Virus record (IMG/VR): IMGVR_UViG_3300025570_000016
Span: 1-61,506 of that record
Strand: one strand, 5' to 3'
DNA: 61,506 bases
Origin: a virus
Positions within the stretch are counted from its first letter, which is position 1. Every line of letters begins with the position of its first letter. Both the position numbers and the translations under genes were made by a program. Below, piece by piece: positions 651-60,464 of this stretch. The notes under the pieces are model-generated. The model was not told where the DNA came from. It did not search any database and was given only the letters and a program-made list of their open reading frames with translations.

Positions 651-1161
651 TGTAAAATCTATTTAGTTTTTTCTCTATCTCTCTTTCCGTATTAGGTCTA
701 GTCCTTTGTCTTATAATCTGTATAAGGTTTCTATACTTATTATCTTCCTTTTTAAGGAGAGAGTTATCTTTAATTAAAGCATCATTCACCAAATATAAAT
801 CTTTTATTTTATTTTCCAAGGAAATTACTTGTTTTTTTAAATCATTTACTGTATTCAAACCATGAACCGGGTCGTATCCATCATAAAACAAGGTTCGGCA
901 CTCTAAATATTTAGCTCGTAAAACCTCATCATACTTGACTATATCTTGAAATTTAAGCCAATAATTATGAACCGTTGCATGGTTACAATTAAAAGTTCTA
1001 GCAATGTGGCTAGAGCCTAAGTTTAAATCCTTGAGTATATCGCAGTAAACCATTCTTGCGTTTACGTACTTCCTTAACCTTGTCTTCTTTGTTAAGTCTA
1101 AGGCAAATACTCCGTTAACTATCCTCTTGAGTTTCTCCTCCTGTTGTTCCTTCAGTTCCAT
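634..1161 (-). CDS. HTH protein resembling DnaA domain IV, with coiled-coil tail
   Basis: The protein has 175 residues. Residues about 30-72 read like the DNA-binding C-terminal domain of DnaA: an Arg/Tyr-rich helix, then a helix ending in a SSHIARTFNCNHATVHNY segment that resembles the DnaA signature helix-turn-helix (compare the family DHTTV/DHSTV box). A coiled coil follows (about 105-150) and then a basic tail. There is no AAA+ domain, so it is not a full initiator. It could recognise a DnaA-like box at the phage origin or act as a regulator. It lies in the primase-helicase operon. Start ATG 1161. Confidence 0.65.
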   Translation of the reverse strand: MELKEQQEEKLKRIVNGVFALDLTKKTRLRKYVNARMVYCDILKDLNLGSSHIARTFNCNHATVHNYWLKFQDIVKYDEVLRAKYLECRTLFYDGYDPVHGLNTVNDLKKQVISLENKIKDLYLVNDALIKDNSLLKKEDNKYRNLIQIIRQRTRPNTEREIEKKLNRFYNGVYV

Positions 1162-1483
1162 TTGATGTAAGTGTTTTTTGGTTTGTAATTAAATCTAAGT
1201 ATTCGTCCAACTCTATTGGTATGATGTCTAAGTACACAGCCTTCTCGCCCTCCTGCTTGAGATATTCTATCTCAAAAAAGAATGGCACTTCGCCCTTAAC
1301 TACGCCACCAACCATTTGAGTTAGTCCGTTTAGTGATACTAAATCTTCTTCGTGGTTTATGAGTTGACGTACAACCTCCTCTTGGATATTATCGGGATAC
1401 ATATCCAACTCCTCTATAAAGTAAACGTCAAATTTAAGAGTCGTCTTCTTCTCCCCCTCGGTAAACTTCTGTTCTGAATCCAT
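1115..1483 (-). CDS. Unknown acidic early protein, 122 aa
   Basis: This is an acidic protein of 122 residues with a central region of alternating hydrophobic strands (around 55-95) and a low-complexity Thr/Gly/Glu tail. I do not recognise the family. Its first 50 bases overlap the VRR nuclease gene and its end overlaps the HTH gene by 47 bases, so reading frames are tightly compressed here. Confidence 0.6.
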   Translation of the reverse strand: MDSEQKFTEGEKKTTLKFDVYFIEELDMYPDNIQEEVVRQLINHEEDLVSLNGLTQMVGGVVKGEVPFFFEIEYLKQEGEKAVYLDIIPIELDEYLDLITNQKTLTSNGTEGTTGGETQEDS

Positions 1484-1691
1484 ATCCTTTTAATTCTTTT
1501 AGTCTATACTCCTGCAACTTTGATACTTTTCCTGTTGGCCTCTTCACCTCGCTGAATAAAACATCTGCGTTAGGCTTGAAGGCAACTAAGTCGGGAATCC
1601 CATTCTTATTAGTCTTCACTAACTTGAGGACATAATAACCTTCGGACTCCAACTCCTTGATTCTTTTAGATTGTATCTGTTGCTCTGTCAT
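1434..1691 (-). CDS. VRR-NUC-type nuclease, 85 aa
   Basis: This is a minimal VRR-NUC domain (PD-(D/E)XK superfamily). The N-terminal helix with Glu is followed by GIPDLVAF (the catalytic Asp) and then by FSEVKR (the catalytic Glu and Lys). The length matches stand-alone phage VRR-NUC proteins, which act as structure-specific nucleases such as Holliday junction resolvases. It sits just after the SF2 helicase and a small basic protein, consistent with a replication or recombination role. Start ATG 1691. Confidence 0.85.
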   Translation of the reverse strand: MTEQQIQSKRIKELESEGYYVLKLVKTNKNGIPDLVAFKPNADVLFSEVKRPTGKVSKLQEYRLKELKGYGFRTEVYRGGEEDDS

Positions 1692-1692
1692 T

Positions 1693-1950
1693 TTATAAAG
1701 ATACTAAATCCAAATCTTTTCTAACGTATAAATCTTTTGATACTAATTTTATAGCACCCTTCTTAATACCTTTATCTAACAATTTTCTTACATTTCTTTT
1801 AGATAAACCTCCTTTACCTAAGGTTATATAAACATTATTAAGGCTAAAGGGTTTAGTGCTTTTATTTACCTTCCTTAAAAAAGTAGAATATGCATCAGTA
1901 GAGTTGGTAATTGATGCTGTATTGTATCTGAGTCCGTTTCTATTTTTCAT
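1693..1950 (-). CDS. Small basic protein, winged-helix-like
   Basis: The protein has 85 residues and is strongly basic. The stretch from about 35 to 80 (a LGKGGLSKRNVRKLLDKGIK helix pair followed by two beta strands) looks like a small winged helix-turn-helix. The exact family is not recognised. Start and stop nest between the SF2 helicase (4-base overlap) and the VRR nuclease (1-base gap), so it is probably cotranslated with them. Confidence 0.6.
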   Translation of the reverse strand: MKNRNGLRYNTASITNSTDAYSTFLRKVNKSTKPFSLNNVYITLGKGGLSKRNVRKLLDKGIKKGAIKLVSKDLYVRKDLDLVSL

Positions 1951-3185
1951 AGTAAATCTTTTTTAAAGTGTCTAAGTGTATAATCCTTCTTCTTTGTTAC
2001 TGCTTTGTATATGTCTGTCTCGATGCCGCCCTTAGAGAATATCCAATAAACTCTATTCTTAAGCCTGTCCTTGGTTGTCATCCTGTCCTTTGACTGCCAA
2101 TAACTCGTAGCACTAAAGTCAATATTATAGTACACTAAGTAGTCAGCATGCTTAAGTGATATTCCTTCACGCCCACTGACAATCTGAAGCGCAATATTAT
2201 TATCGGTAGTATCAAATTCATACAACTCTGTTGTTAAGTCATCGCCAAAGACCTCCTTCAAAGCTTTAAGCTCCTGCTTAAACTTATAGAATATCCCAAT
2301 CTTCTTACCCTTGAATCGCTCCTTTATAAACTTTGCTTTGGTGTAATCCAATACCATTGAGTTACCACTCTCAAACTTTATAGTTCCCGAATAGATTTGG
2401 TGTAGCTTCATCATCAGCTTCACGGGTGTGTCAGCTAGGATAACATCCTCCTCACCCTCAATGACTAAGTCACGCTTCAACCTGTTGGCTATCTCGTAAG
2501 TCTTGTCTTCAAGCTGAACCTCAAGCACATTCTCCATAGTCTCGGTGACAAACCCCGCATCCTTCTGCGTTAGCGATATGGTATATGGCTTCATCTTTTC
2601 TATGATAGATTCATTACCTCTTGTGTAATCCTTTATCATCATACCGTTTATTTTTCGCTCTCTAACATCTACATACCTATCACAGAACCTGTAGAAGTTC
2701 TTGAAAGACTGAAACGGGTTACCGTTTATACCGTATACCTGATGGTACATCTGACTATACGACTCAGGTGACGGTGTACCCGACAGCAGGATAACCTTTG
2801 CCTTAGTCTTTAGTATCAAATCCCTAACAGCCTTCGCTCTTTTATTTGGTTTAGGGAATGCTCCAAGGCCGTGAGCCTCATCACATATAATGACATCCCA
2901 CTTAAGGTCGGGAGCTTTGTGCATTGACTCGTAGTTGATTGTAAACATCACGAAGGATGCAGGACAAAGCACATCGTAGTCTTTAGTTATAGAGCTCATA
3001 GCTTTCTTCTTTGTCAGGAATAAAACATTCTCCACTCCAAGCTTATCGCATATACCGAGACTCGTGAGAGTCTTTCCTGTACGCACCTCCATGGCTAGGT
3101 ATACAAAGTTATTCCTCTGTATTATATCTGTGGCCTTATCAATTATATCCGATTGATAATCTCTCCACTCGAATGCTCCTACCAT
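1947..3185 (-). CDS. SF2 DNA helicase (SNF2-like)
   Basis: This 412-residue helicase has RecA-like lobe 1 motifs: a Q-motif-like FEWRDYQ near residue 6, Walker A (GKT 37-39, preceded by EVRT), DEAH at 102-105 and SGTP at 135-138. Lobe 2 carries a REGISL motif and the QSKDRMTTKDR motif VI. It is an ATP-driven translocase on duplex DNA of the kind many phages encode for replication, recombination or fork restart. It lies downstream of the primase-helicase in the same operon. The ATG at 3185 overlaps the preceding gene by 7 bases. Confidence 0.9.
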   Translation of the reverse strand: MVGAFEWRDYQSDIIDKATDIIQRNNFVYLAMEVRTGKTLTSLGICDKLGVENVLFLTKKKAMSSITKDYDVLCPASFVMFTINYESMHKAPDLKWDVIICDEAHGLGAFPKPNKRAKAVRDLILKTKAKVILLSGTPSPESYSQMYHQVYGINGNPFQSFKNFYRFCDRYVDVRERKINGMMIKDYTRGNESIIEKMKPYTISLTQKDAGFVTETMENVLEVQLEDKTYEIANRLKRDLVIEGEEDVILADTPVKLMMKLHQIYSGTIKFESGNSMVLDYTKAKFIKERFKGKKIGIFYKFKQELKALKEVFGDDLTTELYEFDTTDNNIALQIVSGREGISLKHADYLVYYNIDFSATSYWQSKDRMTTKDRLKNRVYWIFSKGGIETDIYKAVTKKKDYTLRHFKKDLL

Positions 3186-3445
3186 TCGTCAACTGCAAAG
3201 ATTGGCGTCTTTTCTCCAACATAAGAACCAAGAACATTGTAACTCATATAATCTACCGCATCCGTGTAACTCATGCCGTCACTTATAAGTATGTTCAAGC
3301 ATTTCTTTGTTGAATAAATCAATCGCCTTGATTGGTAACAGAACCCGATGACCGCGTCATCGAATCCGTCTGCCTTTAAAAATTGCTCATCGTTGTAGTG
3401 TTCAACGAGAAACTCTAGCATGTTTTTGTAGTTTAACTTTTCCAT
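3179..3445 (-). CDS. Conserved phage protein, 88 aa
   Basis: This resembles a small uncharacterised protein seen in many phages, with a FDDAVIGFC box, a YST/KCLNIL helix, a DGMSYTDA box and an ending of the type NVLGSYVGEKTPIF. No biochemical role is known to me. It sits between primase-helicase and SF2 helicase, with 1-base and 7-base overlaps. Family recognition is from memory of the motif pattern. Confidence 0.75.
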   Translation of the reverse strand: MEKLNYKNMLEFLVEHYNDEQFLKADGFDDAVIGFCYQSRRLIYSTKKCLNILISDGMSYTDAVDYMSYNVLGSYVGEKTPIFAVDEW

Positions 3446-5859
3446 TACTCTTCTATTTGTGTTTGAATTATAGGTTTCTTTTTAATAATCATGTACTTTC
3501 CGTGTACATCCTTTCCAATCTCAGGTTGTACACCTGTTTTATGTAGGGCATAAGATGCTAACCATCTATAAAACCTTATCCTAGATATAGTCATCTTTGC
3601 TTTAGGCCCGAAGTCAGGATACTCCTCAATGAAGTCATAGTACAACTGCTGAGAGTTAAGCTTGGTTTCCAACATTAAAGATGGGTTAGAGCTCTGACCT
3701 TTAAGTAGGCCGCACCACTCTATAAAGTCGTGACATGTCTCTGCAGATAGTTGACGTATCTTTAGGTTTACAAACTGACTCTTCTGTAATCCTTTAGCAA
3801 GGTAGTTCTGAAGACAGCCAATCATGTAATTATCAAAGCTACACCAATCCCTCTCACTCCAATCACCAAACATCAACTTACCAAACTCATCCATCGGGGT
3901 GAAGTTCTTATTGTAGTGCTGATGAAGTTCAAGCTCCCACTTACGCCTAGCGAATGAGTTACCTGCACCCTTGATAGCATAGTTAGTTGTGATAGCAATC
4001 TTAGGTGATTTGCTGAAAGGAATCTTGATAGCATCCTTATTCTTCTTCTCAAGAGTCAACCCTTCTGTCACAACGCTAAACAATCTCTCGAAGTCGAAGT
4101 TCTTTTTAACATCATCGAAGACAAGTATCTGCGTATCTGCTGATACAAGCTGATAAGCAAACGAGCGTTCAAATGTAAACGACTTACCATCTATCGTTAC
4201 CACCTTCTTCATCTTTGATAAAGCATTCATAAACAAACCTTTACCTGTACCACCCTCAGGGTTATCTGATATAACCTCATCGTTTAAGATTATTGCCGGG
4301 CAGTATGATAAATTCTTATGTGCATGCAGCATGAAGCCTATCGTACTCTCCATTGAATTAATCCTAGCATCTTCATTACCACATACGTTGCCTATAAATG
4401 TTTTGTAGTCGCAGTCAGTAACCTCACAGATATTAAAGTTCCTATCTATAACGTGGTCTTTCCAAACGTAACCACCCAAATCTAAGTAGTCGATGGTTAT
4501 CACCTCATCCTTCTTAATCTCAACCGCGCAGTTGTTGTAGTACAAGAACGCTGAGTCTTTGGTGTCTGACATGAAGTGAATGTCAATCGTTGCGAGCAAG
4601 GTTAGAAACTCTTCTCTGAACAACCTTGTGTTATCTGCAAAGTAATTGTATATACTTAAGTCATCTAAGTCTATTAGGTGACCCAATATAAAGTCTTTAA
4701 TCTCCTTCTCTGACGTGTGGTCTATTAAATTATTGGTAACCTTTACGAATACGTAGTTCTTACTACCCTCAGGACAATACTTGTAAAAGCCATTATCCTC
4801 TAAGAAGTGCTTAAATAGAATATGCACAATCTTTATAGTCCCCTTATCATTCTTAGTCCAAAATTGTTTAAGAGCGTTCTCCTCCGTCACACGAGTCAGC
4901 ACCGATTCAATTACATCGCTATCAATGTTTGACTCCTCTAATTGATTGCGAATCTCTTTTTTTGTTGCGCCGCGTCTTAGCTTAGCTTTGATATTGTTTA
5001 CCTGCTCATCGTCTTCGTAGTATTTCGTTCCGAAGTTTTGTGTGTTAGCATAAGCTGAGTCAATAGTCCTTGTGATTTCTGACAAAGAGAAACTCTCATT
5101 AGCGAAACCATTAAGAACATAAGAAGCTAAACTTTTATTGATTCCATAATCATTAAAAGCCATTGCAAGTATGAAAGCATTCTGATTACGCTGACCTTCA
5201 GACATAGGGTATTTTTTCTCCCACCATTTAACAAGTATCTCTACAATCTTGTTCTCGTCTGTGATTGGAATTGTAGGAGCGTCTCTTATTACAGAAACCT
5301 CTTTATATTCTACATCCTCTATTGTATCCCAAACCTCTGAGTCTTCATTAACATAAATCATTGGGTCAAATGACTCATAGCAAACACGACTTAAGTTCTT
5401 GCATGTTTTATCAAAGTACGGAGAGTTAAAGTGATTCTCTAGCGAGTTAAAGTAGTTGACGTGATTGTCTACATCCTGTGGTATCCTAACCAAAGCCTTT
5501 AACCCATTACCTGACGGAGATATAAATACTGAATAAGTAAACTCACTCTTGGTTAACTTTTCTTTGTCAGCTAATAAGTCCTTCCTTTTTTCATACCCAT
5601 CAAAGTCTAAGCATATCAAACCACTATGCTCAGTTAGTGAGTTGTCGTTACGCTTAGTGAATATACCTGAGAAGCATATCGCAGGTAACATCTTCTTAAG
5701 TTCGTTACGAGCTGACTTATCCTTCTCCTGACGGATACCCTTGACGAGTTCCTTAGAAGCTCCATCTTTAATTCTTTGTAGTACCACACTGACTTCCCGA
5801 TGGAATGGAGTCGCGGTTTCCTTGATATTTTTAAATATCGTGACGTTTTTTGTGCTCAT
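3445..5859 (-). CDS. Primase-helicase (VirE-N/BT4734-like domain plus SF3-type helicase)
   Basis: The protein has 804 residues. The N-terminal domain carries CFSGIF, GLICLDFDG (Asp pair near residues 83-87) and SPSGNGLKALVRI, the pattern of the BT4734-like VirE-N domain related to archaeo-eukaryotic primases. A helical linker follows (about 200-330). The C-terminal half has a Walker A (PEGGTGKG, about 530-540), a Walker B (ILVFDD) and an ITTNYAI sensor, as in SF3 or D5-like helicases. It is therefore a probable primase plus replicative helicase and the only obvious replisome enzyme encoded here. The leader AAACACAATG starts it. A promoter (5939-5970) and an operator-like dyad (5901-5919) lie upstream. 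Confidence 0.88.
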   Translation of the reverse strand: MSTKNVTIFKNIKETATPFHREVSVVLQRIKDGASKELVKGIRQEKDKSARNELKKMLPAICFSGIFTKRNDNSLTEHSGLICLDFDGYEKRKDLLADKEKLTKSEFTYSVFISPSGNGLKALVRIPQDVDNHVNYFNSLENHFNSPYFDKTCKNLSRVCYESFDPMIYVNEDSEVWDTIEDVEYKEVSVIRDAPTIPITDENKIVEILVKWWEKKYPMSEGQRNQNAFILAMAFNDYGINKSLASYVLNGFANESFSLSEITRTIDSAYANTQNFGTKYYEDDEQVNNIKAKLRRGATKKEIRNQLEESNIDSDVIESVLTRVTEENALKQFWTKNDKGTIKIVHILFKHFLEDNGFYKYCPEGSKNYVFVKVTNNLIDHTSEKEIKDFILGHLIDLDDLSIYNYFADNTRLFREEFLTLLATIDIHFMSDTKDSAFLYYNNCAVEIKKDEVITIDYLDLGGYVWKDHVIDRNFNICEVTDCDYKTFIGNVCGNEDARINSMESTIGFMLHAHKNLSYCPAIILNDEVISDNPEGGTGKGLFMNALSKMKKVVTIDGKSFTFERSFAYQLVSADTQILVFDDVKKNFDFERLFSVVTEGLTLEKKNKDAIKIPFSKSPKIAITTNYAIKGAGNSFARRKWELELHQHYNKNFTPMDEFGKLMFGDWSERDWCSFDNYMIGCLQNYLAKGLQKSQFVNLKIRQLSAETCHDFIEWCGLLKGQSSNPSLMLETKLNSQQLYYDFIEEYPDFGPKAKMTISRIRFYRWLASYALHKTGVQPEIGKDVHGKYMIIKKKPIIQTQIEE

Positions 5860-5900
5860 TGTGTTTAGATTATGATGGGTTAAATTTACTAACTTACTAG

Positions 5901-5919
5901 TTATCAGTAGTGTTGATAA
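5901..5919. promoter_or_regulatory. Operator-like dyad, copy 1
   Basis: TTATCA, six bases, then TTGATAA forms an inverted repeat just downstream of the primase promoter. The same geometry recurs at 16489-16507 ahead of groEL, and the 20 bases beginning at the right half-site (TTGATAATAATGATRACTTT) are shared apart from one base. A regulator binding here could block the transcript. No binding protein is identified; the winged-helix protein at 19150-19584 or a DnaA-like protein are candidates. Confidence 0.55.
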
Positions 5920-5938
5920 TAATGATGACTTTATTCTT

Positions 5939-5970
5939 CAAATATAGGAATAAAAAAAATAATTACCAAT
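5939..5970 (-). promoter_or_regulatory. Promoter for the primase-helicase operon
   Basis: On the minus strand the -7 element TATATTTG lies at 5946-5939, with ATTG at 5970-5967 exactly 20 bases upstream (Bacteroidota consensus TTTG). It follows a terminator hairpin at 6022-6054, so a new transcription unit begins here. Confidence 0.75.
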
Positions 5971-6021
5971 AAAAAATATATATATATAGTAGGGCGGTAG
6001 GAGTTTTAATATTTCATCAGG

Positions 6022-6054
6022 AAAAAAAAGAGGAGGACTCCCACAGTCCCCCTC
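6022..6054 (-). terminator. Rho-independent terminator (minus strand)
   Basis: A ten-base-pair stem (6030-6039 with 6045-6054, one G-U pair) and a five-base loop are followed on the minus strand by eight T at 6029-6022. It ends the transcript that carries the recombination genes and the tRNA, just before the primase promoter. Confidence 0.85.
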
Positions 6055-6089
6055 GATTCTCTCGTGCTGATTTCTAAATCCATAGATTT

Positions 6090-6141
6090 AAAAATTGCCT
6101 GCTTTCCTACGGCAGGACTTGGTTTGCACCACTCACGCAGG
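6090..6141 (-). other. Alternative-pairing hairpin region downstream of the tRNA
   Basis: On the minus strand CCTGC occurs twice (6141-6137 and 6116-6112) before a single GCAGG (6102-6098). Pairing with the second copy makes a hairpin followed by five T (6094-6090), like a weak terminator; pairing with the first would prevent it. Apart from this and the short ORF at 6191, I see nothing convincing in the roughly 200 bases between the tRNA and the 6030 terminator. Confidence 0.35.
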
Positions 6142-6190
6142 TTGCTCTCGTTTGGTATTAACGCTTTACTTTATGTGCTATATTTGTATT

Positions 6191-6262
6191 ATGAATACAT
6201 TCACAAAGTTGTTGTACGCGCTCCTTATAATAGGATTCTATACGATTGGTATATTGCTGTGA
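6191..6262 (+). CDS. Possible 23-aa single-pass membrane peptide
   Basis: The ATG at 6191 opens a 23-residue reading frame with a short Lys-containing start and a continuous hydrophobic stretch ending in IGILL. A TATATTTG -7 element sits at 6180-6187, very close upstream, so the transcript might be nearly leaderless. It is antisense to, and overlaps by five bases, the tRNA 3' end. It would be the only plus-strand gene in the left arm, which lowers confidence. Confidence 0.3.
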   Translation: MNTFTKLLYALLIIGFYTIGILL

Positions 6263-6403
6263 GAGAAGGACTCGAACCTCCACGTAGCGGTTAGCTATAG
6301 GACAAGTTGTGCACAATGGTGGTCAACCCGCTATCCTAAAGTTTATTCCGTTGCCTACACCCCCGAGACAGGAGGGCATGTCTGCCAATTTCATCACCTC
6401 ACA
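6258..6403 (-). tRNA. Oversized tRNA-like gene (Leu-type D arm, 146 nt)
   Basis: Cloverleaf parts on the minus strand are: acceptor 6403-6397 paired with 6264-6258 (seven pairs, one G-U); a D arm with a three-pair stem and the Leu-type AAATTGGCAGA loop (6394-6378); a five-pair stem with seven-base loop CTGTCTC (6376-6360, formal anticodon GUC at 6369-6367); and a perfect T arm GGAGG, TTCGAGT, CCTTC (6281-6265). About 78 bases lie between the putative anticodon arm and the T arm, far beyond a normal variable arm, and they hold further nested pairings. GUC (Asp) does not suit a Leu-type body. Either an insertion or intron interrupts a tRNA-Leu, or it is a decayed tRNA. No CCA is encoded. Confidence 0.7.
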
Positions 6404-6448
6404 TTATAAGTGGATGCAAATATACAAATTTACACCCACTTATTTAAT

Positions 6449-6721
6449 TTAGAATGGCAGATTTTCTTCAGCCTCTTCTACACTCTTAGCCGCTGCCTGT
6501 TGAGACTTTGGTTTAAAGGTATCCAACTCTACGTATGGATTACCGCTGCGCCCTACAAGGACGTTTAGGTTTACCCATCCACGGTCTGCACCGTGTTGCT
6601 TAAGAAAAGGAATAGCATCCTCAATCTTAATTGATACTCTCCCAACTACGAAGTCGGGTTGATTTTCTCTCGTTGAAAACGAGAAGCCGTCTGCAAAGAT
6701 TTTTTCTTTTTTCTCTGACAT
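6449..6721 (-). CDS. Probable single-stranded DNA-binding protein, 90 aa
   Basis: The protein has 90 residues. A beta-rich N-terminal part (residues 8-62) is followed by a Gln/Ala/Ser-rich linker and an acidic tail ending EEAEENLPF, the layout of phage SSBs whose acidic aromatic tail recruits partners. It follows the exonuclease and annealing-protein genes, supporting a role in recombination and replication. The OB fold itself is inferred, not proven. Start ATG 6721. Confidence 0.6.
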   Translation of the reverse strand: MSEKKEKIFADGFSFSTRENQPDFVVGRVSIKIEDAIPFLKQHGADRGWVNLNVLVGRSGNPYVELDTFKPKSQQAAAKSVEEAEENLPF

Positions 6722-6809
6722 AACATGTGTTTAAGTACCTAGTAATGAAAGACTTACAAAACCTCTAGGCAGGTTAAGTTCGCCATCTGTGTGAATCCGT
6801 TATAACGGA
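6722..6809 (-). other. Structured intergenic spacer with palindrome (exonuclease-SSB gap)
   Basis: This gap follows the exonuclease stop. The palindrome AATCCGTTATAACGGATT (6794-6811) overlaps the stop codon. Then come a possible GGC/GCC hairpin (6784 to about 6768), CCTAG paired with CTAGG across about 22 bases, and an AAACACATGTT leader before the SSB ATG. The layout (stop, palindrome hairpin, structured spacer, leader) mirrors the hammerhead-bearing gaps, but I find no CTGATGA core here. Confidence 0.4.
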
Positions 6810-7544
6810 TTAATCAATGTAATCTTCAATATAATAATCCTCAATAGTCTCTGAAGCATTCTCTCCAAAGAAATTGTGATAGACCTCTATAGCTCTCTCA
6901 ACCTTGTCCTCGCCACGCTTAATGAAATCCTCAGTAGGTCTGAAGACTCCTAGCATCTGAGTAGACTTGTCAATGACTAAGAATATTAATGGTTTACCAA
7001 ATAACTCTTGGTATATGTAAGCTTGACTATCGTAGTTGTATAGGTTAGCAGACCTCTTGAACTTTTTAATGTCTCCCGTGGTCTTTAAATCAATCAAGAC
7101 GTCATTACCTACAATATCTGCCTTACCCTTCCACATAACTCCTTTAATCTCTTTTATGCTAGGAACTTCAAACTCATTACCCTCTGCATAAATCATATCA
7201 AAGAAATCCATATTAGACTTCATGGTATCTGTCCATGACTTAATCTCTGCAACCTCCTTGTCAAGTAGTACAAAGTCTAACTCATTATCTGATATGAAAT
7301 CCTTATACTTCTTCGTGTTACGTGATGATACGTCAAGTGATATGGTATCCTTAGCCTTCTCGGGCTCAAGGATTATCTGATGAAACACTCTACCCTTAGC
7401 GAAGATAGGGTTATCTGCCTTAGACACTCCAAAATCTTTTGGGTTGTTAAGTAGCGCGCTGATGTCTGAGTTAGAGAGATAGTTCTTACCTATCCCTCCG
7501 TAATACTCAGCGTCATCTCTAAGTTTTTCTATAACATCCTTCAT
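6810..7544 (-). CDS. RecE/PDDEXK-type exonuclease
   Basis: The protein has 244 residues with PD-(D/E)XK nuclease motifs: GKADIV then LIDLKTT (catalytic Asp, then Asp-x-Lys, near 139-154) and the YDSQAYIYQELFG helix with its conserved Gln and Tyr, as in RecE-like exonucleases (DUF3799/PDDEXK_1 type). It would resect double-stranded ends to make 3' single strands for the annealing protein encoded immediately upstream. I chose ATG 7544, two bases after the upstream stop; ATG 7562 is possible. The palindrome TCCGTTATAACGGA overlaps the region of the stop codon. Confidence 0.85.
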   Translation of the reverse strand: MKDVIEKLRDDAEYYGGIGKNYLSNSDISALLNNPKDFGVSKADNPIFAKGRVFHQIILEPEKAKDTISLDVSSRNTKKYKDFISDNELDFVLLDKEVAEIKSWTDTMKSNMDFFDMIYAEGNEFEVPSIKEIKGVMWKGKADIVGNDVLIDLKTTGDIKKFKRSANLYNYDSQAYIYQELFGKPLIFLVIDKSTQMLGVFRPTEDFIKRGEDKVERAIEVYHNFFGENASETIEDYYIEDYID

Positions 7545-7545
7545 C

Positions 7546-8130
7546 TTACATAGCCTTTTCAATCTCCTTCTTAACGGAAACCTTTATCTTGTACTTGGTC
7601 TCAAGATTCTTTACAATCTCTGATAAGCCAATACCCTTGTTAGCTGATATGTACTTCATAACCTTAACCCAATTACCATCTCCAACCTCAAGCGATATCT
7701 TTGAATCCTTAGCAATCTTTGTAGGCTTCTCGGTAACCATCTCAGGCACATCCTCTCCCGTCCATAAAGACAATCCAAGACCGTGCATTGCAATAGCTTT
7801 AGCCGTAGACCTTTGTATGGCCTTATTAACATCCATTGACGTAACCTTATCCAATGCAATAGAATTATTTCTAAAATCCATGATAGGTAGGTAGTCAATA
7901 TGCTCCAAGCCATCTACCTCAATACCAACCTTGACGTAAGCCGTGTTGCCATCTGTAAAGTAGTTCAACTCAGTAGACTGAGACTCATAAATTTTTCTCT
8001 GTGCATTAGGGTAGTTACTCTTAAGCATGTGCCATGCGTTTGCCCATGATATGTAATCTAATTTCCCTTTTCGCTCAACCTTATCCTTGATAGGGAGCGT
8101 TGATAGTGTAGTGTAACTGTTCTTACTCAT
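7546..8130 (-). CDS. Single-strand annealing protein (DUF1071/Sak3-like)
   Basis: The protein has 194 residues. The N-terminal region KLDYISWANAWHMLKSNYPNAQ is typical of the DUF1071 family of single-strand annealing proteins, followed by strands and the helix of AIQRSTAKAIAMHGLGLSLW. The C-terminal 45 residues look like a small winged helix. With the adjacent exonuclease it forms a Red/RecET-like recombination pair. It starts with the common leader AAACACAATG. Confidence 0.85.
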   Translation of the reverse strand: MSKNSYTTLSTLPIKDKVERKGKLDYISWANAWHMLKSNYPNAQRKIYESQSTELNYFTDGNTAYVKVGIEVDGLEHIDYLPIMDFRNNSIALDKVTSMDVNKAIQRSTAKAIAMHGLGLSLWTGEDVPEMVTEKPTKIAKDSKISLEVGDGNWVKVMKYISANKGIGLSEIVKNLETKYKIKVSVKKEIEKAM

Positions 8131-9845: not shown

Positions 9846-9854
9846 TTTAAAGAG

Positions 9855-9882
9855 AAAAAAAAGAATCCGTGATAACGGATTC
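9855..9882 (-). terminator. Rho-independent terminator using the common palindrome
   Basis: The hairpin at 9863-9882 (a variant of the recurrent palindrome, GAATCCG paired with CGGATTC) is followed on the minus strand by eight T at 9862-9855. It closes the unit that starts at 11471. Confidence 0.85.
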
Positions 9883-9891
9883 CCTTCTCTC

Positions 9892-9987
9892 TGTCTTTGA
9901 ATACCTTTGCCAATATGAAAGTCTAACTAAAAGACTCGTGGTCTTGGCTATTAACCATAAGCAGGTATCCCCTCAATCCCCAAGACA
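9892..9987 (-). ncRNA. Structured noncoding RNA candidate
   Basis: The 126 bases between the 79-aa gene and the terminator hold no good gene but several nested pairings on the minus strand: TGTCTT (9987-9982) with AAGACA (9897-9892); ATACCT with AGGTAT inside it; GCC with GGC; and a hairpin AAGAC, CACGA, GTCTT. The segment GCTTATGGTTAATAGC looks like a tRNA D arm, but no acceptor or T arm fits. It may be a decayed tRNA or an untyped small RNA processed from the 3' end of the transcript. Confidence 0.45.
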
Positions 9988-11410: not shown

Positions 11411-11426
11411 TGTGTTTAATGTTTGT

Positions 11427-11454
11427 GAGGAATCCGTTATAACGGACTGACCTC
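11427..11454 (-). promoter_or_regulatory. 5' UTR hairpin built on the common palindrome
   Basis: AGTCCGTTATAACGGATT (11448-11431) is extended by GAGG and CCTC with a two-base bulge. It lies between the 11471-11502 promoter and the amidotransferase ATG, so it would be in the leader of that mRNA. No terminator T-run follows. It could be an operator, an RNA-processing hairpin or a ribosome-access control. Confidence 0.5.
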
Positions 11455-11470
11455 TGATTAGTGAATTGTA

Positions 11471-11503: not shown

Positions 11504-11662
11504 TTAATGTCCGTTATCTATCAAGGCTTCTGTTACCTTCATTCCTTGCTTCTTAGCTTCCTCTTCCAATGTAGGAAAACAAGCTATGAATAGTTCTTCT
11601 GTTTCAAACGTAGCCACGCATTCAGCATGATTACTGCTCTCAAAGTATACTTCTACGTACAT
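11504..11662 (-). CDS. Small early protein, 52 aa
   Basis: The frame from ATG 11662 to TAA 11504 encodes 52 residues beginning MYVEVYFESSNHAEC and continuing with an acidic helix (TLEEEAKKQG). It is preceded by the recurrent leader CCTAAAAAGAAGTA. It fills an otherwise empty gap and stops right at the next promoter. No family is recognised. Confidence 0.6.
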   Translation of the reverse strand: MYVEVYFESSNHAECVATFETEELFIACFPTLEEEAKKQGMKVTEALIDNGH

Positions 11663-11702
11663 GATTTACTTCTTTTTAGGTTTAGTTTTAGTTTAGTTTG
11701 TA

Positions 11703-11945
11703 TTAGATATGATAAAATTTTATCGTATCAGTATATTTAGGTAGCTTCTTAAAACCATCTTGTCTTTTTATTTCAATAACTCCATTTTCTACTGCCACAT
11801 ATTCCCAACCATAATTAGTCATGCCATAGGCATTGATTATTCCTACTATCTCTTTGACGTTATTTGTTGGTAGGTCGCAGATAGTCATTTGCGTTTCGCT
11901 AAATTCGTCTAAAAATGTGCATTCGTAAAGTTTCTTACTTTCCAT
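11703..11945 (-). CDS. Small early protein, 80 aa
   Basis: The 80-residue protein has strand-rich ends and a central helix NNVKEIVGIINAYG. Its leader CCTAAAAAGAAGTA is shared with the two neighbouring genes. No family is recognised; small host-takeover proteins are common at such positions. Confidence 0.6.
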   Translation of the reverse strand: MESKKLYECTFLDEFSETQMTICDLPTNNVKEIVGIINAYGMTNYGWEYVAVENGVIEIKRQDGFKKLPKYTDTIKFYHI

Positions 11946-11970
11946 AATTTCTACTTCTTTTTAGGTTTAG

Positions 11971-12198
11971 TTAGATGCACCAACATCCGTCTTCGGTTTC
12001 TTTTAATATGTATAACTTCTTCTTATTAGCTTTTTCTTTATCAAGAAACTGAATACCATTGACAACAAGATCGTCTATGTTTAACTCGTTTAAATCTACA
12101 TCCATTTCAAGTAGATAATCCATAAGCTCTTCGTAATACTCATTGTCTATGTCTACACAACAAGACATCATAAGTCTGTTTAAATTAAATTCTTTCAT
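11971..12198 (-). CDS. Small acidic early protein, 75 aa
   Basis: The 75-residue protein is acidic and Leu/Asp-rich in the middle (LLEMDVDLNELNIDDLV) and ends in CWCI, with a second Cys pair at residues 13-14. It carries the CCTAAAAAGAAGTA leader. Function is unknown. Confidence 0.6.
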   Translation of the reverse strand: MKEFNLNRLMMSCCVDIDNEYYEELMDYLLEMDVDLNELNIDDLVVNGIQFLDKEKANKKKLYILKETEDGCWCI

Positions 12199-12217
12199 AA
12201 CTTACTTCTTTTTAGGT

Positions 12218-12403
12218 TTAAATTAAATCTCCGTTCTCATCAAAAGAACCTATTACATCTTCTTCTTCAGTTTCTTTTTCTTTCTTGTAGATTGACATTC
12301 TGTACTCATCATCTACCATACGTTTAGTCATCTGTTGTTCAATGCTAATGCCTTCAATCATGCCTTGCATCATGGACTCGAATAATTTTTTGGTCTGTCC
12401 CAT
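12218..12403 (-). CDS. Small early protein, 61 aa, translated from the hammerhead-cleaved leader
   Basis: This 61-residue, Met-rich helical protein (LFESMMQGMIEG) has an acidic tail. The ATG at 12403 follows AAACACA. The predicted cleavage point of the type I hammerhead is at 12425/12424, so the processed mRNA would start 21 bases upstream of this ATG. No family is recognised. Confidence 0.6.
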   Translation of the reverse strand: MGQTKKLFESMMQGMIEGISIEQQMTKRMVDDEYRMSIYKKEKETEEEDVIGSFDENGDLI

Positions 12404-12418
12404 TGTGTTTAATTTATT

Positions 12419-12482
12419 GGTTAAGACTCAAATCCGCTATAACGGATTCAAGTTTCGGATATTCAACCCTCATCAGTTAACC
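12419..12482 (-). ncRNA. Hammerhead ribozyme, type I
   Basis: All core elements are present on the minus strand in order. Helix I 5' strand GGTTAA is at 12482-12477. CTGATGA follows at 12476-12470. Helix II (12469-12457) has four pairs including one G-U. GAAA is at 12456-12453. Helix III is ten pairs around loop TTATAG (12452-12427), the stem being the recurrent palindrome. U16.1 is at 12426, C17 at 12425, and helix I 3' strand TTAACC at 12424-12419 pairs perfectly with the start. Cleavage is predicted between 12425 and 12424. It lies between the stop of the 102-aa gene (12487) and the next ATG (12403). Confidence 0.9.
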
Positions 12483-12486
12483 TATT

Positions 12487-12795
12487 TTAGGTAGTTATTA
12501 TCTCAAAGTTATACGCCTCTATTTCATTCTTAATAAAATTTTTACCCTCTTCCGTTGTTACAACTTCGTCTATCCATAAAGAGAATAAAGAATTGTGTAG
12601 TTTATCAAATTCATCATCTGAAACACATTGTATTATCTTGTGAAATATGGGTGCAATTTCTTTGTTGTTAATCCACCACTCACCTAAAGATTCGTCACAT
12701 ACGTATCTTAAGAAAAATCTATATGCTGAAATAGTTGGCTCGTTTTCTACAATAAACTTGTTTAAATCGTTATCATAAATTGAAACTCTTTTCAT
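12487..12795 (-). CDS. Unknown early protein, 102 aa
   Basis: The 102-residue protein is helical, aromatic-rich and acidic (FFLRYVCDESLGEWW, SLWIDEVV). The stop codon lies only four bases before the type I hammerhead, so ribozyme folding could compete with terminating ribosomes. No family is recognised. Confidence 0.65.
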   Translation of the reverse strand: MKRVSIYDNDLNKFIVENEPTISAYRFFLRYVCDESLGEWWINNKEIAPIFHKIIQCVSDDEFDKLHNSLFSLWIDEVVTTEEGKNFIKNEIEAYNFEIITT

Positions 12796-12815
12796 ATCGT
12801 TTTAGTTTTAAAGGT

Positions 12816-13007
12816 TTATAGGTCTAATTTATATTCTAATCTGTTCTGCATCTCCGTTTCAATCATAGCAATAAATGTCGAATCGTATTTACAGCCTTTC
12901 GGGAATTCTTTTCTGTACTCTGTTATGTCTCTGTGGACTAACTTCAATGTGTAATCACTCATAAGACCTATTAGGTCATAAGCAGATTGTGTTTCTAAAT
13001 GTGCCAT
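12816..13007 (-). CDS. Small early protein, 63 aa
   Basis: The 63-residue helical protein has a DYTLKLVHRDITEYRKEFP middle and a charged C-terminus. ATG 13007 follows the upstream stop by 11 bases. No family is recognised. Confidence 0.6.
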   Translation of the reverse strand: MAHLETQSAYDLIGLMSDYTLKLVHRDITEYRKEFPKGCKYDSTFIAMIETEMQNRLEYKLDL

Positions 13008-13018
13008 AGCTTTGTAGT

Positions 13019-13183
13019 TTAAGTTATTTCGTATCCAAACGAATGTATTGAATTCTCGTTGAGCATCTTCAATAACTGCTTGTACTCTCTTGTCGCAGTC
13101 GGTCTCTTGCAGTCACGCACTGCCAATGTAGATGAGTTAATTCCAACCCCTTTTAACGTGTAGAAAAATCTTACTCTTAACAT
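13019..13183 (-). CDS. Small basic early protein, 54 aa
   Basis: The 54-residue protein starts MLRVRFFYTLKGVG and has an LNENSIHSFGYEI ending. ATG 13183 is preferred to 13207 because the latter overlaps the promoter -7 element at 13205-13212. It is the first gene of its unit. No family is recognised. Confidence 0.55.
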   Translation of the reverse strand: MLRVRFFYTLKGVGINSSTLAVRDCKRPTATREYKQLLKMLNENSIHSFGYEIT

Positions 13184-13204
13184 AGTTTCTGTGTTTGATT
13201 TAGA

Positions 13205-13236
13205 CAAATATAATACTAAATTTAGACATATCCAAA
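13205..13236 (-). promoter_or_regulatory. Promoter for the 13.2-11.5 kb unit
   Basis: On the minus strand TTTG at 13236-13233, a 20-base spacer and TATATTTG at 13212-13205 are present. It shares TATGTCTAAATTT in the spacer with the promoter at 11471-11502. Confidence 0.85.
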
Positions 13237-13238
13237 TG

Positions 13239-13400
13239 TTAGTCTATATTTTTATGTGTTAATACTAAGTATAACGTGTATACTCCAAATGGTAGTAGGT
13301 AAATGTATCCTACCTCTGTCGTGATAGCAAACAAGAATATTATCATAATGTTTGCCATAATCAATGCGAATATTGTCGCGTAGTCTAAAATCTTCTTCAT
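13239..13400 (-). CDS. Two-pass membrane protein, 53 aa
   Basis: The 53-residue protein has two hydrophobic helices: about residues 8-26 (IFALIMANIMIIFLFAI) and 31-47 (YIYLLPFGVYTLYLVL). I chose ATG 13400, immediately after the upstream stop, over the longer frame to 13490. It may act at the host membrane early in infection, but no family is recognised. Confidence 0.7.
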   Translation of the reverse strand: MKKILDYATIFALIMANIMIIFLFAITTEVGYIYLLPFGVYTLYLVLTHKNID

Positions 13401-13401
13401 C

Positions 13402-13626
13402 TTATTTGTCGTTTTGCTTGAATGCTTCCAATGTCTTTGTGTAATTGGATAGCTTCGTTTGTAATAATTTAATGGTCTCACGCGTATCATCGCACACGTA
13501 GGTGTTACACTCCGCCAATCTGAATTGGTAGAAATGAATGCTGTGGTTAACCTTATCTAGGTCAGCAATATACTGCTCAGTAGATGCGATTAAATTTCTC
13601 AATTCTCTTCTCTCAATTGTATCCAT
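13402..13626 (-). CDS. Coiled-coil early protein, 74 aa
   Basis: The 74-residue protein begins MDTIERRELRNLIAS, with heptad-like helices throughout and two Cys in the middle. ATG 13626 is chosen because the longer frame to 13728 would be translated through the hammerhead at 13647-13697. The ATG lies 21 bases after the end of that ribozyme. No family is recognised. Confidence 0.6.
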   Translation of the reverse strand: MDTIERRELRNLIASTEQYIADLDKVNHSIHFYQFRLAECNTYVCDDTRETIKLLQTKLSNYTKTLEAFKQNDK

Positions 13627-13646
13627 ATCAATATGTTTAAATGGTT

Positions 13647-13697
13647 TCCGTTTCGACCTTTTGGTCTCATCAGCACAAGCACTCACTTGTGGACGGA
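13647..13697 (-). ncRNA. Hammerhead ribozyme, type III (copy 2)
   Basis: Minus-strand core in order: helix III 5' strand TCCG (13697-13694), U16.1 13693 and C17 13692. Helix I follows as CACAAG (13691-13686), loop TGAGTG and CTTGTG (13679-13674). CTGATGA is at 13673-13667, helix II GACC/GGTC with loop AAAA at 13666-13655, GAAA at 13654-13651 and CGGA at 13650-13647. Predicted cleavage is between 13692 and 13691. Helix I differs from copy 1 at several positions on both strands and still pairs perfectly. It sits between the amidoligase stop and the next gene. Confidence 0.93.
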
Positions 13698-13698
13698 T

Positions 13699-13724
13699 GA
13701 GGAATCCGTTATAACGGACTCCCC
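13699..13724 (-). other. Palindrome hairpin abutting hammerhead copy 2
   Basis: A ten-pair stem with core TCCGTTATAACGGA lies one base 5' of the type III ribozyme and right after the amidoligase stop codon (13732). The same arrangement occurs at copy 1. No T-run follows, so it is not a standard terminator. It could protect the 3' end of the upstream message or stack on helix III. Confidence 0.7.
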
Positions 13725-13731
13725 ACATACG

Positions 13732-14688
13732 TCATCTTAAAGTCTCCGCTCTAAGGCTTCTTGTGTACAAGTGACTCAAGTTACCAAATCGGTCAACGAA
13801 TGGTTTCACTGCGTGGTTAATTTTACGCGTCATCAACATCTTTCTGAAATGCTTTGATAACTCCATAACCTCAGACACCTTATCTGCGTCGCCATTGTAC
13901 ATCATCATGAGAATTGGTTTCAACTTGCTTAGAAGACCTCTATGCGTTCCATTTGGCTTATTCACCGCGTAGTTAACAATCTCATACATCAATCTGTATC
14001 TAAAGTTCAAATCAGCTACACTCTTCACCCTACTCGGCAATCTAAACTCAATCCTATTGTCATCAATACGGCATACTTGGTATTTGTGATGAGTACTAAT
14101 TCCGTCCCACTCAGACCGGCATACATCCATGAAGATGTTTGACTGACACCACGTTCTTCGCAATCTGAATCGGTATAGCGCGTAGATGATTCCACTGAAT
14201 GGTCTAATTGCGTCAGCTAACTCTTCTCCGCTCATCCCTTTAACCGCTAGGTTAATGTGACCCCCACATTCGATGTCTGACGGCGAGAATTGGTCATCAA
14301 TGACATGCTTCGCTTCGCTGAACATATTGAAGATTTTGTTCCTCCAAACGGATTTGCCAATCAACGGAAGTACATTTGTGATAGCTTCAACACCACATGA
14401 CCCGTCAGTCTCAAAGTGACTGAGCAAAGGGTATTCCTTGACCGCATTACGATGAAATGTGTTCTTCTCAATCTCAAAGCCAATAGTAAAACGCGACTCA
14501 ATCTCTCCCTCATCAGTTACATTGGTAGTTAAATTCATTTCATTGTGAGGTAAATGCTTTAGGTCATATTGGAATGGTGTTTTGTCAAACATCCTATAAG
14601 GCAATCCATTGCGCTTTGCCCACCCATAAGATAGCATTCGACCGCGGTCCTCATTGCCCTCAGTAGTGTAAGTGATTTGTGCATTCAT
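13732..14688 (-). CDS. Amidoligase-family enzyme (ATP-grasp-like COOH-NH2 ligase)
   Basis: The 318-residue protein has the family pattern: GFEIE (70-74), DGSCGVEAIT (95-104), CGGHIN (141-146) and RIEFRLPS (212-219), matching the metal/ATP-binding Glu, Asp and Arg positions of the amidoligase_2 type. Such enzymes form amide or isopeptide bonds on peptides or metabolites. Family gene neighbourhoods pair them with class II amidotransferases and gamma-glutamylcyclotransferases; this phage carries those as a fusion at 10343-11410. Hammerhead ribozymes lie directly before and after the gene. The real target is unknown. Confidence 0.82.
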   Translation of the reverse strand: MNAQITYTTEGNEDRGRMLSYGWAKRNGLPYRMFDKTPFQYDLKHLPHNEMNLTTNVTDEGEIESRFTIGFEIEKNTFHRNAVKEYPLLSHFETDGSCGVEAITNVLPLIGKSVWRNKIFNMFSEAKHVIDDQFSPSDIECGGHINLAVKGMSGEELADAIRPFSGIIYALYRFRLRRTWCQSNIFMDVCRSEWDGISTHHKYQVCRIDDNRIEFRLPSRVKSVADLNFRYRLMYEIVNYAVNKPNGTHRGLLSKLKPILMMMYNGDADKVSEVMELSKHFRKMLMTRKINHAVKPFVDRFGNLSHLYTRSLRAETLR

Positions 14689-14713
14689 AATCTATGTAGT
14701 TAATGGTTTAAAA

Positions 14714-14764
14714 TCCGTTTCGACCTCTTGGTCTCATCAGCGCAGGACACTACCTGCGGACGGA
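14714..14764 (-). ncRNA. Hammerhead ribozyme, type III (copy 1)
   Basis: Minus-strand core in order: TCCG (14764-14761), U16.1 14760 and C17 14759. Helix I is CGCAGG (14758-14753), loop TAGTGT and CCTGCG (14746-14741). CTGATGA is at 14740-14734, helix II GACC/GGTC with loop AAGA at 14733-14722, GAAA at 14721-14718 and CGGA at 14717-14714. Predicted cleavage is between 14759 and 14758, 70 bases before the amidoligase ATG. All catalytic residues of the hammerhead consensus are intact. Confidence 0.93.
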
Positions 14765-14765
14765 A

Positions 14766-14793
14766 CAGAAAATCCGTTATAACGGATTCTCTG
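14766..14793 (-). other. Palindrome hairpin abutting hammerhead copy 1
   Basis: An eleven-pair stem around TCCGTTATAACGGA (two G-U pairs) ends one base before the ribozyme. It lies in the gap after the 229-aa gene. Same layout as 13699-13724. Confidence 0.7.
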
Positions 14794-14807
14794 CATCATC
14801 TTAGTGA

Positions 14808-15497
14808 TTAGCTCCATATACCAATTGCTCTGATGATTTTCAATGAGTCAGCTTCAAATTCATCCTTAATGTATTGAGGCACCTTGTCTGCGTCTCCGTC
14901 AATTGTCCATTGAGCATCATCGTATAGCTTCACTACAACTCCAATTCCGTCTTCGAATAACTGCCCGTTAACAATGTAAGATTTGATAACCTTACTTGTA
15001 GTTTCCTCAGCATTTGCTTCAGCGCTCGCTTCAGCGGTAGCTTCAGCAGATTCCTCTGTGCTTACTACCTGCGCATCATCTCCGCTTTGCTCAGCCTTGA
15101 TAAACTTGATAAGATTAGCAATTGAGCGCGATGCAGTTACGTTCCCTGAATTCTCCATGGTTGTACATTGTCGCTTGTATTTCGATACAATGTTTTGGTC
15201 TTCCACAACAACCTTACCCACTCTGTTTTGGTCAGCAAAGAATGAATACTTCCACCCGAAGATATCCATAGCGAATTCTTCTTTGGTCATCACAATACCG
15301 GCATACTCAAAGCACTGCTTTCCCTCAGGCGATTTAAACCATTGGTAGGTCAGGTGCACCTTTTTAGCTAGCTTGATTTTCTTGTCGAATGCAGTCACGT
15401 CATTAGCATTCAATTCATTCAATAGAGCAACTGCACCATTGAATTCCGCTACATTGCTTTCTAGCAATTCAGCTACATTTGTGTTTAATGTTCTCAT
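14808..15497 (-). CDS. Unknown first gene of the early arm, 229 aa
   Basis: The N-terminal half is helical, with a SPEGKQCFEYAGIVMTKEEF region. A low-complexity Glu/Ala/Thr linker follows (about 143-168), then a compact C-terminal domain with strands (SYIVNGQLFEDGIGVVVKLY). I do not recognise a family. As the promoter-proximal gene next to the putative origin, and in the same unit as the amidoligase, it could be a host-takeover protein or an amidoligase partner. Confidence 0.7.
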   Translation of the reverse strand: MRTLNTNVAELLESNVAEFNGAVALLNELNANDVTAFDKKIKLAKKVHLTYQWFKSPEGKQCFEYAGIVMTKEEFAMDIFGWKYSFFADQNRVGKVVVEDQNIVSKYKRQCTTMENSGNVTASRSIANLIKFIKAEQSGDDAQVVSTEESAEATAEASAEANAEETTSKVIKSYIVNGQLFEDGIGVVVKLYDDAQWTIDGDADKVPQYIKDEFEADSLKIIRAIGIWS

Positions 15498-15600: not shown

Positions 15601-15970
15601 TTATTTTGACAGAATTTGTACAAGCGCAGTAAACACGCAATATGCAGCGCGGTGTATTTGGGGCAATTTATTTGGGGCTAATTTGGTCGGGCGGGGGCAA
15701 TCTCTTATGTGCTGATATGCAATATTGAGATTTGTCTTTGGGGCAAAGACATGGAGCGCAGTGAATACGCGGTAGAATCCGTTATAACGGAACACGTAAA
15801 ACGTGGACGGACGGGGGACGGGGGACGGACGGACGGGGGACGGGGACGCGTAGCAAAACGTCAAAAAATCCACATGCGCAGGACAAAAGCACACCCCCAC
15901 CCTTGAAAAAAAAATCGGTTTCGTTCGAGGGTGCGCGCGCGTGCGGCGGGGGGGAACCCACAACCTACAC
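15601..15970. other. G-rich repeat region between divergent arms, putative origin
   Basis: About 400 bases have base composition unlike the AT-rich genome. Features are three copies of TTTGGGGC (near 15657, 15671 and 15737), two near-identical 16-mers (AGCGCAGTAAACACGC 15623-15638 and AGCGCAGTGAATACGC 15755-15770), tandem GGACGGGGGAC-type units at about 15805-15847, one palindrome TCCGTTATAACGGA (15778-15791), a hairpin CACGTAAAACGTG, and an alternating GC run near 15930. Open frames here have no coding character. The position between the divergent arms, iteron-like repeats and DnaA-domain proteins suggest an origin. Confidence 0.5.
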
Positions 15971-33726: not shown

Positions 33727-33759
33727 AAAAAGGGAGTCCGTTATAACGGACTCTCTTTT
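33727..33759 (+). terminator. Terminator after the capsid gene, built on the common palindrome
   Basis: A thirteen-pair stem from AAAAGGGAG to CTCTCTTTT encloses TCCGTTATAACGGA. The flanking A and T runs make it work in both directions. It lies seven bases after the capsid stop. Confidence 0.8.
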
Positions 33760-60340: not shown

Positions 60341-60344
60341 AAAA

Positions 60345-60376
60345 AAGGGGAGTCCGTTATAACGGATTCCCCTTTT
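60345..60376. terminator. Bidirectional terminator between the converging arms
   Basis: A hairpin from AAGGGG to CCCCTT encloses AGTCCGTTATAACGGATT, flanked by an A-run on the left and TTTT on the right. It lies between the end of the giant plus-strand gene and the minus-strand operon end, so it can stop both. Confidence 0.85.
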
Positions 60377-60464
60377 AGATTAAGCAATAAATTCCGTAAA
60401 GAATTACTGCGTTAATTATTAGTACGACTATAAAGTCTTTTATCTTACCATCAGAATCTGACAT
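60375..60464 (-). CDS. Tiny membrane protein, 29 aa
   Basis: ATG 60464 to TAA 60375 encodes 29 residues: a polar start (MSDSDGKIKDF) and a hydrophobic helix (IVVLIINAVILYGIY). It overlaps the end of the nuclease gene by 14 bases and finishes inside the shared terminator. Last gene of the minus-strand operon. Confidence 0.6.
   Translation of the reverse strand: MSDSDGKIKDFIVVLIINAVILYGIYCLI

Follow-up and report, generated by a model that had tools for sequence, protein, structure and literature searches.

The 61,506-base virus record IMGVR_UViG_3300025570_000016 of IMG/VR, analysed here over its whole length (the window), carries three hammerhead ribozymes (HHRs) of two topologies, two of them flanking a putative amidoligase gene and the third between two small genes. 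A stable hairpin ends just 5′ of the predicted cut in type I and type III alike; in type I it is the ribozyme's own stem III, in type III a separate hairpin. We read these HHRs, with a probability of roughly 60%, as RNA-processing cassettes in a leftward polycistronic transcript, in which self-cleavage makes hairpin-capped 3′ ends while transcription continues. Directly visible in the sequence are the folds of the ribozymes, the hairpins and their spacing, the layout of stop and start codons and the conservation of all of these; a hairpin ending just 5′ of every predicted cut points to a protected 3′ end, beyond cutting alone.

Hammerheads with a hairpin at the predicted cut

A descriptor covering all three hammerhead topologies, scanned over the 61.5-kb window, returned exactly three HHRs, each lying in a gene gap on the minus strand (Table 1); on 100 dinucleotide shuffles it gave 0 strict and 32 loose matches. 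Each of the three has the core CUGANGA plus GAAA, three stems and NUH at the cut, by which a hammerhead is recognised. Models were made from the window and its relatives for type III (R1) and type I (R2). In type III, 97.2% of cells are paired and both sides have changed in 10 of 15 pairs; in type I, 100% of cells are paired and both sides have changed in 9 of 22 pairs. The observed pairing or covariation score was reached by 0 of 500 shuffles for type III and type I alike, and compensatory changes thus keep the stems as in a hammerhead. The type III loops between which a tertiary contact would form are conserved in sequence (loop I GUGU/GAGU, loop II AAAA/GAAA). At Rfam gathering thresholds there was no match in the window or in six relative stretches, the gathering score being a library threshold that lies outside the chemical definition of a hammerhead. 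The claim of a first-pass annotation of this DNA, that three hammerheads of two topologies sit in minus-strand gaps, is therefore borne out by the descriptor, the shuffles and the covariation.

It is informative to compare the two topologies with respect to what precedes the cut. In 21 of the 22 type III sites that make up the first non-redundant set, the separate hairpin stops 0–2 nucleotides (nt) short of stem III, with a mean z of −3.4, and 6–8 nt short of the predicted cut. A wide set, gathered by pattern scans of IMG/VR (at least 72 stretches with type III and at least 120 with type I) and of bacterial genomes (11 stretches, several from metagenome-assembled genomes (MAGs) of Patescibacteria), comprises 319 unique HHRs among the matches listed, mostly from IMG/VR contigs: 226 type I, 91 type III and 2 type II. 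Here, an upstream z below −2 occurs in 64% of non-redundant type III sites, 7% of type I sites and 10% of control stretches; z was used since a plain score for a hairpin near the end is less telling (88% versus 51% of shuffles). Stem III of type I forms a closed hairpin by itself, with a median of −10.0 kcal/mol versus −2.3 for stem II. Type I already has a hairpin 5′ of its cut and type III has none of its own; the topology lacking one is thus the one that gained it. Furthermore, the hairpin sequences vary widely (GUCCGUUCAAACGGAC, GUGUCUUCAAAGACAC and GGGGGCUUCGGCCCCC are examples), so it is structure and place that are kept, not sequence.

Within the window, the hairpins, which the first-pass annotation overlooked, share a palindrome, TCCGTTATAACGGA, present in seven exact and two one-mismatch copies where 0.16 would be expected. 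In most records with HHRs a single palindrome, peculiar to the record, dominates, with 7–16 copies in the larger records and half-sites such as GTCTGTT, GTGTCTT, GTGTCCT and GTCTCTT; four (G022, G009, G010 and G041) have no dominant palindrome in the sequence examined. A U-tract follows the hairpin in 22 of 57 intergenic copies and in 0 of 35 HHR-linked copies, so that what comes after this hairpin is either a U-tract or an HHR, not both. The HHR-linked copies lack the combination of hairpin and U-tract that makes an intrinsic terminator, and others possess it, for example that at 33728–33759. In the HHR-free phage MW202828.1 (L110), GTGTCGTTAACGACAC occurs 12 times in 7 kb (764–7774) among leftward genes, often directly after stops. 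A comparison of the presence and absence of window genes across records singled out none as the factor that would read the palindrome.

Placement between genes and spread among relatives

Across 64 sites in 23 records, the upstream stop codon lies at a median of −1 nt in type I and 36 nt upstream of the ribozyme in type III, and the next ATG lies at a median of 16 nt (type I) or 21 nt (type III) downstream. Likewise, in the wide set starts lie about 16–24 nt downstream and stops just upstream, the type I stop codon overlapping stem I (median −2 nt); an ATG is found 10–45 nt downstream in 89% of type I and 80% of type III sites, against 19% and 16% at random positions. The intercistronic placement proposed for the three window HHRs is hence a rule across hundreds of phage HHRs. 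The further statement that each lies after a stop and before a start holds for the positions; it has one qualification, in that the open frame 13402–13728, begun at its first ATG, would span the second ribozyme, whereas its ATG at 13626 comes after that ribozyme.

In the relatives, HHRs fall between the homologue of the first leftward gene, the putative amidoligase gene and a GATase/GGACT gene, with one further HHR after the GATase/GGACT gene in two records (G029 and G044). Of 11 contigs fetched via the putative amidoligase gene alone, 10 carry a type III HHR in the slot 3′ of that gene (nine called by R1 and one, L016, by eye), and conservation of this slot reaches down to about 40% identity of the protein. 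The eleventh contig (L014) has a strong intrinsic terminator in that slot (−18.1 kcal/mol plus a U-tract), followed by the GATase promoter and leader. The slot 5′ of the same gene holds type III in two records (G000 and G001) and type I in seven others. Read from sequence comparison, these patterns argue that what is kept may be the cut, not one sequence. Both this 11-contig set and a 12-contig set fetched via the terminase are free of pattern-search bias.

Type III HHRs were found by R1 at E ≤ 0.01 in 22 of 50 records searched, and R2 gave matches above 44 bits in 12 records, its weaker matches being mostly the hairpin alone. One record (G022) has seven type I HHRs within 3 kb and another (G029) four of type III. 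The first-pass annotation had called three HHRs of mixed type in one region unusual; this does not stand, given these counts and the tandem and triple arrangements in polycistronic loci described in 2011 (PMC3088659). One type I HHR (G003:42495–42560) apparently has no 3′ strand of stem I and is likely a decaying copy. Cultured carriers for which laboratory hosts are available are Flavobacterium elemo phages (68 records; host, for one, Flavobacterium sp. BAL314) and the Cellulophaga phages phi19:3 (host Cellulophaga baltica) and phi18:3; HHR sites in such carriers include W02:17290–17347 and W03:21769–21817. A search of phage phi38:1 found no HHR. Phage phi19:3, a type I carrier, encodes an RNA ligase family protein (NC_021789.1 752–1678) that could act on cleavage products. 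Type III HHRs with hairpins also occur, as host or prophage sequence, in MAG contigs (L228–L238) that bear the labels Patescibacteria, Saccharibacteria, Parcubacteria and others.

The record is probably a complete genome, judging by a 159-bp direct terminal repeat (2–160 and 61348–61506, 99% identity). Its leftward genes, presumably early ones, serve DNA metabolism (SSAP, exonuclease, helicase, primase-like), and its rightward genes include those for GroEL, PhoH, terminase, portal and virion proteins. Identity of the terminase is 76% with its counterpart in MW202828 and about 46% with those of Flavobacterium elemo phages. The phage is of marine Bacteroidetes type, and its relatives make a host among the Flavobacteriia likely. 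Gene calls are based on open reading frames, and the contigs are metagenomic. For the protein of the first leftward gene, a Pfam search gave no match; its structure model has a helical N-terminal part (mean pLDDT 76), and a fold search of the PDB with that model gave no match. The family name amidoligase, taken from the first-pass annotation, found no Pfam support even at E ≤ 1 and no PDB chain in a profile search, and we keep it as putative. C-rich repeats (CCCCGTCCGTCC) at 15770–15970, in the gap between the leftward and rightward blocks, include one palindrome copy. A conserved leader (AATCAGAGGTC...CCTCACAAA) before the GATase/GGACT gene, at 11413–11470 in the window and 11150–11235 in L014, is a possible regulatory RNA.

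Table 1. Coordinates of the ribozymes, hairpins, palindrome copies and flanking genes in the window
Feature	Position	Strand	Details
Type III HHR, slot 5′ of putative amidoligase	14714–14764	minus	stems I/II/III 6/4/5 bp; predicted cut 3′ of C17, 14759; R1 70.7 bits, E 1.6e-16; gap between genes 14808–15497 and 13732–14688
Type III HHR, slot 3′ of putative amidoligase	13647–13697	minus	stems 7/4/5 bp; predicted cut 3′ of C17, 13692; R1 80.4 bits, E 4.2e-19; gap between genes 13732–14688 and 13402–13626
Type I HHR between two small genes	12419–12482	minus	stems 6/4/12 bp; predicted cut 3′ of C17, 12425; R2 83.4 bits, E 3.7e-24; gap between genes 12487–12795 and 12218–12403
Hairpin adjoining stem III of HHR 14714–14764	14765–14794	minus	TCCGTTATAACGGA at 14773–14786; 13-bp fold; 45-nt ΔG −18.5, z −5.6; no U-tract; ends 6 nt before cut
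Hairpin adjoining stem III of HHR 13647–13697	13698–13725	minus	TCCGTTATAACGGA at 13705–13718; 12-bp fold; 45-nt ΔG −18.0, z −3.9; ends 6 nt before cut
Stem III hairpin of type I HHR	12426–12453	minus	cap is palindrome variant TCCGTTATAGCGGA (12433–12446); ends 1 nt before cut
First gene of leftward operon, 229 aa	14808–15497	minus	stop upstream of first cassette
Putative amidoligase gene, 318 aa	13732–14688	minus	ribozyme on either side
Small gene downstream of second cassette	13402–13626	minus	ATG at 13626
Small gene upstream of type I ribozyme	12487–12795	minus	stop codon to stem I, 4 nt
Small gene downstream of type I ribozyme	12218–12403	minus	ATG 15 nt past ribozyme
Palindrome copies, 14 bp	6796, 9866, 11433, 12433, 13705, 14773, 15778, 33737, 60353
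Palindrome in leader hairpin of GATase/GGACT gene	11429–11454	minus	conserved leader AATCAGAGGTC-hairpin-CCTCAC
Terminator-like hairpin copy	9853–9892	minus	T-rich run after; same hairpin family
Terminator-like hairpin copy	33728–33759	plus	U-tract after; past phrog_13704 (virion structural protein) gene
Terminator-like hairpin copy	60343–60377	plus	past last rightward gene

How cleavage could make a 3′ end, and other readings

Hammerhead cleavage leaves a 5′-OH on one product and a 2′,3′-cyclic phosphate on the other. On the reading that we prefer, the nascent RNA of each gap would fold the hairpin and then the HHR just 3′ of it, and the HHR would cut past the hairpin, at a distance of 1 nt in type I and 6 nt in type III. 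This would leave the upstream message ending much as at a terminator, with a stable hairpin, a very short tail and the cyclic phosphate, an end that should withstand 3′ exonucleases, and because RNA polymerase would run on, downstream genes would still be transcribed. The downstream message would begin with a 5′-OH close to its start codon and, in type III, would retain the ribozyme core as a structured leader. Cleavage in vivo, protection by the hairpin and separate fates for the messages are what we infer from the arrangement. As a refinement, the freed tail, CCGUC, could pair back to the hairpin base; this pairing appears in 27 of 67 type III minimum-energy folds, and native upstream sequences compete slightly more than swapped ones (p=0.003), which weakly suggests cleavage gated by base pairing.

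Several observations weigh against this reading. Patterns characteristic of these very HHRs served to gather the wide set, which biases its size and make-up. About a third of type III sites have no hairpin at z below −2. In folding computed as secondary structure without tertiary terms, native upstream sequence disfavours the catalytic stem III of type III, whose mean probability is 0.54 alone and 0.23 with the hairpin, and at the 14714 site the fold of lowest energy has GAUG paired with CGUC at the cut; back-pairing of the tail likewise gives a weak indication of disfavouring easy ribozyme folding. The palindrome is also found in HHR-free places, including coding sequence at conserved gene positions, and must therefore have another role too; the 3′-end model does not explain these coding copies. 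Finally, MW202828 has the same gene order and yielded no HHR with R1 or R2, and HHRs are present in 5 and absent in 7 of the 12 terminase-fetched contigs of at least 35 kb.

The most serious competitor, itself unlikely, is that the cut serves the downstream gene, by freeing its start codon or by setting a 5′-OH leader that controls translation or decay, the hairpin being incidental. The tight distance to the start codon (16–24 nt) fits this, and the overlap of the type I stop with stem I could allow terminating ribosomes to gate folding, but neither the confinement of the hairpin gain to type III nor the terminator occupying the same slot in L014 is thereby explained. It is less probable still that the palindrome serves a phage-specific regulator as its DNA site, with the hairpins beside HHRs arising as a by-product and the HHRs themselves engaged in something unrelated. 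A phage-specific sequence in 7–16 copies per genome, some at conserved coding positions, is what such a site would look like; however, the HHR-linked hairpins of other phages and of Patescibacteria MAGs are unrelated in sequence (for example GGGGGCUUCGGCCCCC) and keep the same spacing, and GU pairs are commoner on the RNA strand than on its complement (44 versus 17). The two roles of the palindrome, as DNA site and as RNA hairpin, can coexist.

We consider it very improbable that the HHRs, as selfish or decaying elements, do nothing for the phage: their numbers do differ between relatives, and the copy in G003 seems to have lost its stem I partner, but catalytic cores are invariant, stems covary, and the slot stays filled, by one topology or another, even where protein identity is about 40%. 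That pairs of HHRs release the intervening RNA for circularisation or as small RNAs is hardly credible, since tandem same-strand HHRs are indeed common but what lies between them is ordinary coding sequence, in many records the HHR stands alone, and the early genes scanned yielded no RNA ligase. No support was found for circular RNA excision.

If cleavage does make the 3′ end, the role of phage hammerheads becomes a specific prediction, reached via the hairpin rule, the slot, the switch of topology and the swap with a terminator. We suggest tentatively, giving it slightly less than an even chance, that this is a widespread natural phage system, perhaps shared by Patescibacteria, in which mRNA 3′ ends would arise by self-cleavage beside a hairpin, interchangeably with intrinsic terminators and with transcription still running.

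Comparison with known systems

The function of prokaryotic hammerheads, bacterial and phage, has been described as an open question (PMC6155905). That phages carry HHRs, also in tandem and triple arrangements, is already known from Perreault et al. 2011 (PMC3088659). The portion of that work drawn on here describes tandem and triple hammerheads in polycistronic phage-linked loci, such as the A. tumefaciens ardA triple, and places the HHphage of haloviruses HF1/HF2 13 nt before the start codon of a phage helicase gene; these RNAs were shown to cleave in vitro, the triple in E. coli as well, and the purpose of the triple was called unknown. The window resembles those loci in having several same-strand HHRs flanking small phage genes, but that portion describes no hairpin rule, no conserved slot with switching topology and no 3′-end role. 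A literature search, with most subscription journals outside its reach, turned up nothing that links "hammerhead ribozyme" with "amidoligase" and nothing about the hairpin rule; hence the hairpin rule and the slot conservation appear new, and we regard their novelty as provisional.

Among known ribozymes, the RAGATH-1 hammerhead (RF03152) is matched weakly by the type I site over the whole model (26.1 bits, below the gathering score of 56.3). The HDV-like theta ribozymes of gut phages (Kienbeck et al. 2024, PMC10879173) are likewise phage-encoded self-cleaving RNAs for RNA processing, but they are of another class and are tied to tRNAs, not to mRNA gaps. Ribozyme-assisted polycistronic co-expression (Liu et al. 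2022, cited in PMC12819055) also combines ribozymes with polycistronic RNA, judging by its title, and is engineered. The intrinsic terminator has the same hairpin in the same place after the stop codon and in one relative replaces the cassette; it differs in its U-tract, which is absent from the HHR-linked copies, where cleavage would make the 3′ end instead.

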